Part shown: one piece after another, positions 28,159 through 46,629 of the stretch
How positions within the stretch are numbered: position 1 is the first letter of the stretch
Layout: each line of letters opens with the position of its first letter
Source: Sinanaerobacter chloroacetimidivorans
GTDB lineage: Bacteria > Bacillota > Clostridia > Peptostreptococcales > Anaerovoracaceae
NCBI RefSeq assembly: GCF_018128545.1
Contig: NZ_JAGSND010000007.1
Span: forward strand, 161,015-225,014
Reading direction: 5' to 3'
DNA: 64,000 nucleotides
The notes under the pieces: generated by a model
Database searches by the model: none
What the model was told of the DNA's origin: nothing
What the model saw: only the letters and a program-made list of their open reading frames with translations
Made by a program: the position numbers and the translations under genes

Positions 28159-28187
28159 CTTTTAAAAATTTAATCATTTGATATAAT
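28159..28187 (+). promoter_or_regulatory. Promoter of the fhs-panB-vor-fol operon
   Basis: TATAAT (28182-28187) is preceded by TG one base upstream, an extended -10, with a weak T-rich -35 near 28159. It gives a leader of about 85 bases before fhs. No folate riboswitch is recognisable in the leader. Confidence 0.6.
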
Positions 28188-28203
28188 GCGATTAATAAAA
28201 TTA

Positions 28204-28218
28204 TGAAACGACGTTTCA
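28204..28218. promoter_or_regulatory. Palindromic operator in the fhs leader
   Basis: TGAAACGACGTTTCA is a perfect 15-base dyad lying about ten bases past the expected transcription start, where a bound repressor would block RNA polymerase. The sequence style resembles TetR-family operators. The cognate regulator is not identified; it does not match the TTGGT-N3-ACCAA site of the nearby GntR gene. Confidence 0.6.
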
Positions 28219-28280
28219 CAATGCGAAATACACTAAAAATGAAGGATAAGCAAAAACAGGAAAAATAATAGGAGGAAAAA

Positions 28281-29960
28281 ATGGAATTTAAAAGCGATAT
28301 CGAGATAGCACAGGAGGCAACACCCAAACTGATACAGGAGATATCAAATAAACTTTCTATTGAGGATGAATATTTAGAATGCTATGGAAAGTACAAGGGT
28401 AAGATTGATTACAATATTTTGGATCAATATCGGGATAAAGAAAACGGAAAACTGATTTTAGTGACAGCAATCAATCCAACTCCGGCTGGCGAAGGGAAAA
28501 CAACGACGACTGTAGGTCTTGGTGATGCACTTAGCAAAATAGGAAAAAAGACGGTAATTGCGTTAAGAGAACCATCCTTAGGTCCGGTTTTTGGTGTAAA
28601 AGGCGGAGCTGCTGGCGGCGGTTATGCACAGGTCATCCCTATGGAAGATATCAACCTTCATTTTACAGGGGACATTCATGCGGTTACAACTGCAAACAAT
28701 CTGATTGCTGCATTGCTCGATAATCATATCCAGCAGGGAAACAGCTTAGGAATTGATGTAAGAAGGATTATATGGAAACGATGTCTGGACATGAATGATA
28801 GACAGTTAAGATTTATGGTGAATGGTCTTGGCGGCAAAGCAAACGGAACACCAAGAGAAGACGGATTTGATATTTCCGTTGCTTCTGAAATTATGGCAGT
28901 GCTTTGTCTTTCCAACGATTTGGAAGATTTAAAGGAAAAGGTCTCCAAGATTATCCTGGCATACAATTTTGAAGGAAAACCAGTCACTGTTGGTGACATA
29001 AAAGCGCAAGGCGCAGTCGCCGCATTATTGAAGGATGCGTTAAAACCGAATCTTGTTCAAACGTTGGAACATACACCTGCTTTCATCCATGGCGGGCCTT
29101 TTGCCAATATTGCTCACGGCTGTAATAGTGTCATGGCTACAAAAATTGCACTGAAGTTGGGAGAGTATGTTGTAACGGAAGCTGGCTTCGGAGCTGACCT
29201 TGGTGCGGAAAAATTCCTTGATATAAAGTGCCGTCTAAGCGGTCTGAGGCCGGATGCAGTAGTAATTGTTGCAACAGCCAGAGCCTTGAAGCTGCACGGA
29301 GGTGTTTTGAAGGCCGATCTTAACAATGAAAATGTAGCTGCTTTGGAAAAAGGTATTGAGAATTTATTAAAGCATGTTGAAAACATTACCGGAGTATTCG
29401 GATTGCCTGCTGTTGTTGCAATCAACCGTTTCCCAACCGATACGGCAGCAGAATTACAATACATCGAGGAAAGATGTAAAGCTCTCGGCGTAAATGTTAT
29501 ATTGTCCGAAGTCTGGGCAAAGGGCGGAGAAGGCGGAATCGCACTGGCAAAGGAAGTAGTCAGAGTAATCGACAAGCAGGAAAGCGATTTTAAATTCTCC
29601 TATGATGAAAACCTTTCAATCAAAGAAAAAATCCATGCCATCGCTACAAGAATATATGGAGCAGATGGTGTTGACTATATAGGCAACTCCTTAAAGCAGA
29701 TCGAAGAAATTGAAGCGTTAGGCTACGGTAATCTACCGATCTGTATGGCAAAAACCCAATATTCTCTCTCTGACGACATGAAAAAACTGGGCAGACCGTC
29801 CGGATTCAGAATTACAGTTAGAAATATCAAGCCATCTGTGGGTGCCGGCTTTATCGTAGCAATTACCGGAGACATCATGACCATGCCTGGATTGCCCAAA
29901 GTACCATCAGCAGAAATGATTGATGTAGATAAAACAGGCAAGATTTCCGGATTGTTTTAG
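28281..29960 (+). CDS. fhs: Formate--tetrahydrofolate ligase
   Basis: Interconverts formate + ATP + tetrahydrofolate and 10-formyl-tetrahydrofolate + ADP. The 559-residue chain is the family length and includes the P-loop-like AINPTPAGEGKTTTTVGLGD (about 65-84), REPSLGPVFGVKGGAAGGGYAQVIPM and the substrate region VTEAGFGADLGAEKFLDIKCR. In purine-fermenting clostridia this enzyme runs toward formate and yields ATP, and that direction suits this operon. It is the first gene of a long co-directional run and is followed by fchA after nine bases. AGGAGG precedes the ATG. Confidence 0.97.
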   Translation: MEFKSDIEIAQEATPKLIQEISNKLSIEDEYLECYGKYKGKIDYNILDQYRDKENGKLILVTAINPTPAGEGKTTTTVGLGDALSKIGKKTVIALREPSLGPVFGVKGGAAGGGYAQVIPMEDINLHFTGDIHAVTTANNLIAALLDNHIQQGNSLGIDVRRIIWKRCLDMNDRQLRFMVNGLGGKANGTPREDGFDISVASEIMAVLCLSNDLEDLKEKVSKIILAYNFEGKPVTVGDIKAQGAVAALLKDALKPNLVQTLEHTPAFIHGGPFANIAHGCNSVMATKIALKLGEYVVTEAGFGADLGAEKFLDIKCRLSGLRPDAVVIVATARALKLHGGVLKADLNNENVAALEKGIENLLKHVENITGVFGLPAVVAINRFPTDTAAELQYIEERCKALGVNVILSEVWAKGGEGGIALAKEVVRVIDKQESDFKFSYDENLSIKEKIHAIATRIYGADGVDYIGNSLKQIEEIEALGYGNLPICMAKTQYSLSDDMKKLGRPSGFRITVRNIKPSVGAGFIVAITGDIMTMPGLPKVPSAEMIDVDKTGKISGLF

Positions 29961-29969
29961 GAGGAAATG

Positions 29970-45254: not shown

Positions 45255-45612
45255 AATTATTATGGAGAATATGGCGTTCTATGGCTACCATGGCGTTTTG
45301 CAAGCTGAAAAAAACCTTGGACAGAAGTTTTTGGTAGATGCTTACCTTTCTTTTTCCTTGAAGAAAGCTGGGGAAACTGATGACCTGAACTTTTCTGTAA
45401 ACTACGGAGAAGCATATGAGAAGATAAGGGAAATTGTCACGAATGAAAAGTTTAACCTCCTTGAGGGTTTGGCAGAAAGGATCTGCAGTGAGATATTTTC
45501 GTCTTATCCGATGGTTCAAAAGCTGCGAATAAGGGTTAAAAAGCCTGAGGCTCCGGTTCCCGGAATCTTTGACTATTTTGGGGTAGAAATAGAAAGGGAA
45601 AGGGAAGCATGA
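45247..45612 (+). CDS. folB: Dihydroneopterin aldolase
   Basis: Cleaves 7,8-dihydroneopterin to hydroxymethyl-dihydropterin and glycolaldehyde. The 121-residue protein contains MAFYGYHGVLQAEKNLGQKFLVDAYLS, NYGEAYEKIREIV and LRIRVKKPEAPVPGIFDYFGVEI, including the catalytic Lys. It overlaps folP and folK, so the three are translationally coupled. Confidence 0.95.
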   Translation: MDKIIMENMAFYGYHGVLQAEKNLGQKFLVDAYLSFSLKKAGETDDLNFSVNYGEAYEKIREIVTNEKFNLLEGLAERICSEIFSSYPMVQKLRIRVKKPEAPVPGIFDYFGVEIEREREA

Positions 45613-46079
45613 GTAAAATATATTTGAGTCTTGGGACGAACCTTGGAGATAAGAAAAGTAATCTTGAATATGCCCTTCATTTACTTTCAGAAAAAGTTAT
45701 CATACTGAAAAAATCATCCTTTTATGAAACGGAACCTGTTGGATTTAAGGATCAGCCATGGTTTTTAAACATGGTTATTGAAGGGGAAACGGACTTATCC
45801 TCCGGAGATCTTCTTTACTTTGCAAAAAATATTGAAAGTAAAATGAAGAGGGTTAAGACAATTGTAAACGGCCCCAGAATTATCGACATAGACATCCTTT
45901 TATATGATGATCAGGAAATTGAAACGGAAAATCTTATCATTCCTCACCCAAGGATGCAGCAAAGAGCTTTTGTCATGGTTCCGCTTTATGAAATCGCATC
46001 GGATCTTATCGTTTCCGGTAAAAGTATAAAAGAGATCATGGAAAGTTTTAAAGGAGAGAAAATAACAAGGCAGTCATGA
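45609..46079 (+). CDS. folK: 2-amino-4-hydroxy-6-hydroxymethyldihydropteridine diphosphokinase
   Basis: Transfers pyrophosphate from ATP to hydroxymethyl-dihydropterin. The 156-residue chain has YLSLGTNLGDKKSNLEYAL, YETEPVGFKDQPWFLNMV and NGPRIIDIDILLYDDQEI with the metal-binding Asp pair, then PHPRMQQRAFVMVPL. It overlaps folB by four bases (ATGA). Confidence 0.95.
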   Translation: MSKIYLSLGTNLGDKKSNLEYALHLLSEKVIILKKSSFYETEPVGFKDQPWFLNMVIEGETDLSSGDLLYFAKNIESKMKRVKTIVNGPRIIDIDILLYDDQEIETENLIIPHPRMQQRAFVMVPLYEIASDLIVSGKSIKEIMESFKGEKITRQS

Positions 46080-46082
46080 ACC

Positions 46083-46146
46083 CGCCTTGTAAATCGTATA
46101 GATGCAAGAGAATTTTTCACAGCCGAAAATTTAAGCGTTAGAAACA
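46083..46146 (+). repeat. Degenerate copy of dispersed repeat F2 (copy 3)
   Basis: AGATGCAAGAGAATTTTTC, a CAGCCGAAAA block and TTTAAGCGTTAGAAAC follow the order of the F2 tails at 3139-3203 and 5780-5845, but the AACGAGGCG inverted repeat is missing. It fills the gap between folK and the HD gene. Confidence 0.5.
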
Positions 46147-46158
46147 AAAGGGATTAAA

Positions 46159-46629
46159 ATGCAAAGAATTGATTCTATTCTTAATGACACTGAATATCTG
46201 GATTACTTAAATAAAATTCAAGAAGCAGAAGCTGACAGGATCTACTGCCGTCATGACATGACGCATTTTCTTGATGTTTCAAGAATTGCTTATATCCTAT
46301 CTCTTGAGGAGAAGCTTCATATCGATAAAGAGATCCTATATGCAATGGGGCTCCTTCATGACATTGGCAGATGGATGGAATATGAAAATGGTATCGACCA
46401 TGCTATCGCAAGTAGAGAGCTTGCTGCAGGAATTCTTCAAAAATGTGACTTTACAGAAATAGAGATAAAGGAAGTACTAACTGCTATTGAAGAACATAGG
46501 AAGAAGAGCGGCACCACACTTTTAGCAGATATTCTCTATAGAGCTGATAAATTATCCCGAAACTGCATTCTCTGTAAAGCAAAAAAAACATGCAGAAAGT
46601 TTTATGGGGAAGCTTTTTTACTTTATTAA
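46159..46629 (+). CDS. HD-domain metal-dependent phosphohydrolase
   Basis: A 156-residue HD protein with RHDMTHFLDVSRIAYILS (first His), LLHDIGRWMEYENG (HD pair) and DHAIASRELA (later His), so the metal site looks complete. The C-terminus has a short cysteine pattern CILCKAKKTC. The folate pathway needs an enzyme to remove phosphates from dihydroneopterin triphosphate, and none of the other genes here does this. Its position after folK makes it a candidate for that step, but the substrate is not shown by sequence. The gene is last in the run and may be co-transcribed across a repeat. Confidence 0.8.
   Translation: MQRIDSILNDTEYLDYLNKIQEAEADRIYCRHDMTHFLDVSRIAYILSLEEKLHIDKEILYAMGLLHDIGRWMEYENGIDHAIASRELAAGILQKCDFTEIEIKEVLTAIEEHRKKSGTTLLADILYRADKLSRNCILCKAKKTCRKFYGEAFLLY

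Follow-up and report, generated by a model that had tools for sequence, protein, structure and literature searches.

Why should genes for PanB and PanE, enzymes of pantothenate (vitamin B5) biosynthesis, lie in one run with genes for a pantothenate importer and a hydrolase, and without a panC? The run in question, of 21 genes, occurs in a 64,000-nucleotide stretch of the Sinanaerobacter chloroacetimidivorans genome—hereafter the window, corresponding to 161015–225014 of contig C55 (NZ_JAGSND010000007.1)—and coordinates below are positions in this window. The answer, we believe, is that the cluster probably encodes a fermentation of pantothenate in which PanE and PanB operate in reverse; these directions we infer. 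We also lean, a shade less firmly, toward a wider reading: that anaerobes of several phyla eat the vitamin, and perhaps coenzyme A (CoA) debris, by means of a PanB lineage that has evolved to work backward, with enzymes of the Amidohydro_3 family serving as the missing pantothenase, and M20 hydrolases as replacements for them.

The 21 open reading frames (ORFs) lie on the + strand between 28281 and 46629 and contain no internal stops. The gaps between them are mostly shorter than 60 bases, or are overlaps; the widest are 105 bases, from panF to the amidohydrolase, and 79 bases, from folK to the HD gene. The preliminary description of this DNA had reported 21 co-directional, closely spaced genes, and in this it was right. 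The names it gave them also agree with family searches, some matches falling below cut-off. (Scores are given here as bits/curated cut-off, from NCBIfam, or from Pfam for DUF997, HD and Amidohydro_3.) These searches found no panC among the 21 genes, so the companion of panB that marks a biosynthesis operon is missing.

A complete route can be laid out from these genes. Pantothenate would be imported by the sodium/pantothenate symporter PanF (37876..39363; 612/328, TIGR02119) and its small membrane partner YhdT (37571..37855; DUF997, 101/26), both assigned by family. The Amidohydro_3 hydrolase (39469..41133; 277/30), the candidate pantothenase, would hydrolyze the vitamin to pantoate and beta-alanine. 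Ketopantoate reductase, PanE (33220..34134; 279/141, and alignable to solved PanE structures), would oxidize pantoate to ketopantoate, and ketopantoate hydroxymethyltransferase, PanB (32326..33198; 305/208), would hand the hydroxymethyl group of ketopantoate to tetrahydrofolate (THF), yielding 3-methyl-2-oxobutanoate and methylene-THF. The former would be converted to isobutyryl-CoA, CO2 and reduced ferredoxin by Vor, a four-subunit 2-oxoacid:acceptor oxidoreductase whose substrate is not readable from sequence. VorB (35165..36253; 494/399) and the gamma subunit VorC (36997..37527; PorC/KorC, 93/81) pass their cut-offs; the thiamine-diphosphate subunit VorA (36250..36996; PorB/KorB, 128/262) and the ferredoxin-like delta subunit VorD (34899..35159; PorD/KorD, 45/60) fall below theirs. 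A CoA-transferase of the butyryl-CoA:acetate family (41154..42491; 866/675) would exchange isobutyryl-CoA for acetyl-CoA, from which ATP would be obtainable by acetate kinase.

Methylene-THF, meanwhile, would be turned into formate and ATP by FolD, methylene-THF dehydrogenase/cyclohydrolase (30587..31438; 268 bits, top of 30 families, none past cut-off), FchA, methenyl-THF cyclohydrolase (29967..30596; the best match, 195 bits, below the equivalog cut-off of 275), and Fhs, formate-tetrahydrofolate ligase (28281..29960; 941/652), the last acting in the ATP-forming direction. A FocA-type channel (31333..32301; 253/232 for the fnt, or formate/nitrite channel, subfamily and 239/290 for the FocA equivalog) would release the formate; its real start is probably later than the ORF start at 31333. 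The sum balances: pantothenate + 3 H2O gives beta-alanine + isobutyrate + CO2 + formate + 6 [H]; no sink for the 6 [H] is named among the 21 genes. About two ATP could be gained, through Fhs and, once CoA has been passed to acetate, through acetate kinase.

Evidence that PanB might be used in this unaccustomed way comes from its phylogeny. Our tree comprises 110 PanB proteins, 49 of them encoded beside panC, with identical sequences merged; a first tree drew on the 30 top-scoring panB loci, and 18 more panC-linked ones were added afterwards. Pieces shorter than 220–230 residues, or of low score, were left out, including the panB of locus L023 and the end pieces of L072 and L078. The PanB of the window, and that of a second cluster on contig C1 of the same genome, fall inside a clade of 40 rows (support 99/89). 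Twenty-five of these rows, our two included, are linked to an amidohydrolase, eleven lie beside panE or fhs, three beside M20 or panF, and one is of another kind. Within 1.3 kb, members of the clade have panE as a neighbor 25 times, fhs seven times, M20 six times and panC not once, whereas the 53 rows that belong neither to it nor to its sister group have panC 49 times and panE, fhs and M20 never. (In the Synergistota loci M20 is matched weakly, at 112–137 bits, and by members of a different subfamily.) With no panC-linked row in its clade, the window PanB thus falls outside the panC-linked biosynthetic lineage.

The sister group consists of 17 rows of PanB-like proteins; the branch that joins it to the clade of 40 is weak with all rows in place (94/49) and firm with 91 rows (100/99). 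It includes L163, L165, L167–L169, L171–L174 and L176, which are low-scoring, retain the catalytic residues and are not beside panC; its neighbors include regulators and unrelated catabolic genes. Six residues that we take to be catalytic, by assignment after E. coli PanB, are kept in 40/40 rows of the clade, 17/17 of the sister group and 53/53 of the remainder, and from these sequences the chemistry of the clade should be that of PanB.

The second cluster, on C1, repeats 14 of the window genes in identical order, diverged to 52–92% identity: fhs 90, fchA 73, folD 72, focA 70, panB 52, panE 76, the small ATPase 69, vorD 72 (over 72 residues), vorB 79, vorA 86, vorC 85, yhdT 76, panF 92 and the amidohydrolase 83%. 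Within the 35 kb examined there, nothing matches the CoA-transferase, fol or HD genes of the window. The C1 cluster has extras of its own: panB is preceded by an IclR-type regulator (recognized by eye) and panE is followed by an M20 hydrolase, with OPT and S58 genes closing the run. Because 14 genes recur in order in the same genome, and parts of the run in others, the gene order is more than chance. The assembly (4.78 Mb) is 97.6% complete with 8.1% contamination, and contamination was considered as the source of the C1 cluster and rejected: polA is found once, on C1 close to the cluster, folP once, on C55, and G+C is 42.6% on C1 and 43.1% in the window. Since each of these two genes is single, both clusters would seem to belong to one organism, and both contigs are probably native to it; a patchwork bin is possible.

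What of the hydrolase? It passes no NCBIfam cut-off. H72, H74, K302, H354, H386 and D448, presumably the metal ligands of Amidohydro_3 hydrolases, are invariant in 25 aligned rows and conform to the HxH, K, H, H, D pattern. By sequence and by fold (the model has a pLDDT of 85) its closest matches are two Pyrococcus structures titled uncharacterized, with no substrate listed, 3igh (TM 0.72) and 3icj (TM 0.67), both by query length and at 23% identity. Neighbors, presumed ligands and common fold together suggest a pantothenase. The assignment of this step leans on gene neighborhood, and the M20 enzymes of C1 and of locus L166 (in the latter, M20 occupies the position of the amidohydrolase) would be equal candidates wherever they are present. 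As sole hydrolases, DmpA/S58 and M20 enzymes find no support in the window, where neither type is among the 21 genes. In 391 genomes of the class the protein was found at E 1e-180 in its own genome only, and at E 1e-120 in six of 61 relatives, its own genome included. That genome has twenty amidohydrolase matches, some of them pieces of one gene, and is, judging from these, rich in predicted Amidohydro_3 hydrolases.

Farther afield, a profile built from 25 relatives led to 249 confirmed stretches, of which the 80 best in named genomes were taken as loci. Sixty-two of them (L021–L082) form a close set, at 52–80% identity, and 17 (L083, L085–L100) a distant set, at 31–38%. We call a locus pan-linked if it has a match to panF (at least 200 bits), yhdT, panB or panE at most 10 kb to either side. 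By this measure 42/62 close loci are pan-linked, 41 of them within 5 kb; panF is near 23, yhdT 24, panB 25 (counting the contig-end pieces of L072 and L078, 78 and 98 bits) and panE 20. The SSS carrier of L021, without a family match at E 1e-60, is excluded from the panF count, and the suspicion that panF names are false was discarded, since all nine panF-like neighbors tested, of the 23, exceed the panF cut-off. Among the distant homologues 1/17 is pan-linked, through a weak panE match. The pan-linked members belong to Bacillota, Spirochaetota, Synergistota, Pseudomonadota and Thermodesulfobacteriota, and when 64 amidohydrolases are placed in a tree, the 44 pan-linked ones, our two copies included, are scattered through the family. 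The record titles of several carriers point to animal guts (chicken, dairy cattle, roe deer).

Some of the arrangements are compact. L038 reads panE-amidohydrolase-panB-fhs-fchA-folD; L023, vorBAC-fhs-panB (split in two frames)-panE-amidohydrolase; and L030, panE-panB-fhs-focA-fchA-folD followed by amidohydrolase-yhdT-panF. Eighteen further regions were picked because their panB was low-scoring or not seen beside panC. Seven hold a PanB of the 40-row clade (L166, L169, L170, L175, L177, L179 and L180), and eleven hold the 17-row type, L169 having both; L178 groups with the biosynthetic rows. Among the seven, L179 reads fhs-folD-panB-panE-TRAP-IclR-yhdT-panF and L166 panB-panE-M20-yhdT-panF, and L170 has panB-panE plus TRAP genes (TRAP by eye in both cases). 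L201 carries fhs-folD-IclR-panB-panE-vorDBAC-CoA-transferase-phosphatase-OPT-S58, its CoA-transferase scoring 500/675, below the equivalog cut-off; the genome it comes from, G456, has panF and the amidohydrolase on a separate contig. The core of the preliminary description, a degradative PanE and PanB coupled to folate and a 2-oxoacid:ferredoxin oxidoreductase, is supported by the 0/40 rows of the PanB clade beside panC, by the recurring adjacency of panF, panE, fhs, folD and vor, by the second cluster in the same genome and by the scarcity of panC among panB-bearing genomes with the amidohydrolase. Across genomes, pan genes are near 42/62 amidohydrolases and panC is in 11/34 of the panB-bearing genomes; 20/62 close loci have no pan gene in the DNA examined.

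These 20 loci weigh against pantothenate fermentation, and so do several other observations, some of which concern panC and are taken up below. Only a minority of the 40-row clade is accompanied by Vor. The catalytic residues, equally kept in all three groups of PanB, provide no evidence on direction. Seven of the 17 distant homologues are near a panF-like symporter of the same superfamily (115–178 bits), so that a symporter neighbor alone is not specific. And in five of 41 genomes (G463 and G465–G468) the amidohydrolase occurs with panF/yhdT and no panB was found, so the whole route cannot apply there; the carriers of these amidohydrolase-yhdT-panF loci (L062, L065, L066, L067 and L068) may stop at pantoate, or take another route instead.

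Of the alternatives, the one that survives best, doubtful as we consider it, keeps the backward route and changes the menu. The main food would be pantetheine, phosphopantetheine or CoA debris, taken up by OPT or other carriers and cut by S58, M20 or Amidohydro_3 enzymes, and pantothenate would be secondary. Next to the C1 copy, L201 and others there are OPT and S58 genes, and an e(P4)-type acid phosphatase lies beside the catabolic clusters of L201 (5346–6356) and L023 (8401–9399), a hint of CoA or phosphopantetheine as food. The window, however, has no OPT, S58 or M20 gene in its run of 21, and the carrier there, as in 23/62 loci, is panF, specific by its family model.

Slightly more doubtful again is ordinary vitamin supply, in which PanB and PanE would run forward, Vor would make 3-methyl-2-oxobutanoate from isobutyryl-CoA, PanF would salvage, and a PanC encoded elsewhere would finish the job. 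Counts of panC speak against it. The 41 genomes examined are those of the 42 pan-linked loci, minus L056 and L025, plus L084. As they were chosen for pan neighbors, their panB count, 34 past cut-off, is inflated; panC is past cut-off in eleven, all among the 34, and 23/34 therefore have panB without it. In the class to which the window belongs, 196 genomes with a completeness of 90% or more were counted: panB is in 60 of them and panC in 58, and 54/59 panB genomes, our own excluded, have panC. The Fisher value for 11/34 versus 54/59, 3e-9, is indicative only, since the rows are related and the two samples are unlike each other in taxonomy and in completeness. Three genomes (G441, G454 and G473) have two panB genes, of which the first adjoins panC and the other the amidohydrolase, and the cluster hydrolase would have no role in synthesis. 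The two types of PanB occur together in Anaerotignum sp. MB30-C6 and in Clostridium sp. OS1-26, for instance.

The preliminary description had held that panC and panD elsewhere, together with pantothenate prototrophy and no consumption of the vitamin, would refute degradation. Half of this gene pair is found in the genome of the window: panC is present in one copy, on contig C10 apart from the cluster, and panD (PF02261) has no match in this assembly, itself 97.6% complete. Both panB genes of the genome are those of the two clusters. In G449 and G450, likewise, panC is accompanied solely by cluster-linked panB, and the PanB of these clusters, with its catalytic residues intact, may therefore also serve synthesis. 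The lone panC (L012, C10:10000-29000) follows ethanolamine-utilization shell and GTPase-like genes, named by eye, and neither panB nor panD was seen nearby.

The remaining alternative is a folate housekeeping operon in which the pan genes reside on account of folate damage by PanB, the product of which FolK recycles. It takes encouragement from the excerpt of one paper, which reports that panB and folK cluster strongly and that PanB cleaves folate as a side activity (PMC4814558), and from the folK and the only folP found in the genome lying here, but is very improbable, since in the 35 kb examined the C1 cluster has no match to the window's fol synthesis genes, folC occurs in only 2/62 amidohydrolase loci (L041 and L042), neither with a pan gene, and the hydrolase and panF are left unexplained. 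The genes concerned are folC (42495..43799; 389/163), folE (43796..44377; 253/182), folP (44394..45254; 325/163), folB (45247..45612; 130/72) and folK (45609..46079; 140/54). As folP is the sole copy found, the folate-synthesis genes of the run are probably housekeeping. The side activity of PanB described in that excerpt may be the reason why this folP lies here.

Two genes of the run remain. The small ATPase (34142..34840) has no family match in NCBIfam or Pfam searches and recurs in C1, L023 and L025; the last gene encodes an HD-domain hydrolase (46159..46629; 54/22). Upstream of fhs is a Clostridiales-2 RNA (27919..27998, + strand; Rfam RF02937, 84.2 bits against a gathering score of 58.6), followed, according to a hairpin scan, by a terminator-like hairpin at 28015-28035; the RNA is probably outside the operon. 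A riboswitch ahead of fhs was considered and dropped, this RNA being the only one detected in the window. The single promoter once proposed for all 21 genes was not confirmed: in addition to the hairpin, no sigma-70-like site turned up in a promoter scan of the + strand from 27700 to the start of fhs, and promoter matches in the region, 54 against 47.2 in shuffles (sd 5.8), are not clearly higher. A response regulator and sensor kinase, recognized by eye from their translations, occupy 25293-27816, directly ahead of both RNA and operon, and may regulate the latter. Elsewhere in the window, a sigma-54 activator, thiamine-dependent 2-oxoacid oxidoreductase, SNF-type sodium symporter, beta-eliminating lyase and acetate-kinase-family protein (729-11838) likely form another run for amino-acid fermentation, and 48919-61828 holds a sugar ABC transporter, xylose-isomerase-like proteins and inositol-type dehydrogenases.

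If pantothenate is indeed fermented in this way, gut microbes that destroy a vitamin could be named, and PanB and folate would acquire an energy-yielding role. Candidate genes are provided for pantothenase, the protein of which had stayed missing. An annotated panB, moreover, need not mean vitamin prototrophy; with 23/34 panB genomes lacking panC past cut-off, models of vitamin supply based on counting panB could take consumers for producers. By title or abstract, no folate-dependent catabolism of pantothenate was found among the papers listed in the literature searched, most subscription journals being outside its scope, and the excerpt of a 2025 review of CoA metabolism in gut bacteria contains neither 'pantothenase' nor 'pantothenate degrad' (PMC12570885). 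Likely, then, this is an undescribed, folate-dependent fermentation, with candidates for a genetically unknown pantothenase.

How does it compare with known systems? Powers and Snell reportedly measured the reversibility of PanB. Excerpts of E. coli work consider reversal possible (PMC7073904), and those of another paper contain nothing on the matter (PMC7770189). Two papers on losses in the rumen (PMC13318490 and PMC10417633) give no more than the rate at which a coated product is degraded there, and nothing in our argument draws on them. Pantothenate hydrolase activity was published in 1966, and according to the excerpt of a 2023 paper the protein was still unidentified (PMC10393543). The pantothenase of Pseudomonas fluorescens (EC 3.5.1.22) catalyzes the same first step as proposed here, pantothenate to pantoate and beta-alanine. 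The aerobic Pseudomonas route continues via aldopantoate and dimethylmalate, using pantoate 4-dehydrogenase and dimethylmalate dehydrogenase, and these later steps differ from a reversed PanE and PanB; neither dehydrogenase is named among the 21 genes, the genome not having been searched for them. Purine-fermenting clostridia make formate and ATP from methylene-THF with FolD, FchA and Fhs; the enzyme set is the same, and here the one-carbon donor would be ketopantoate, by way of PanB. The panB-folK clusters that Thiaville et al. (2016; PMC4814558, in excerpt) explain by folate damage and repair also have their echo, panB and folK being in one run here too, together with importer, hydrolase, panE, vor and fhs. 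With pantothenate biosynthesis, finally, the cluster has the PanB and PanE families and their catalytic residues in common; the difference is that panC and panD are replaced by a hydrolase and an importer, and that PanB stands outside the panC-linked group. The enzyme families, in short, are known ones; the pathway would extend both vitamin catabolism and one-carbon fermentation by a further variant.

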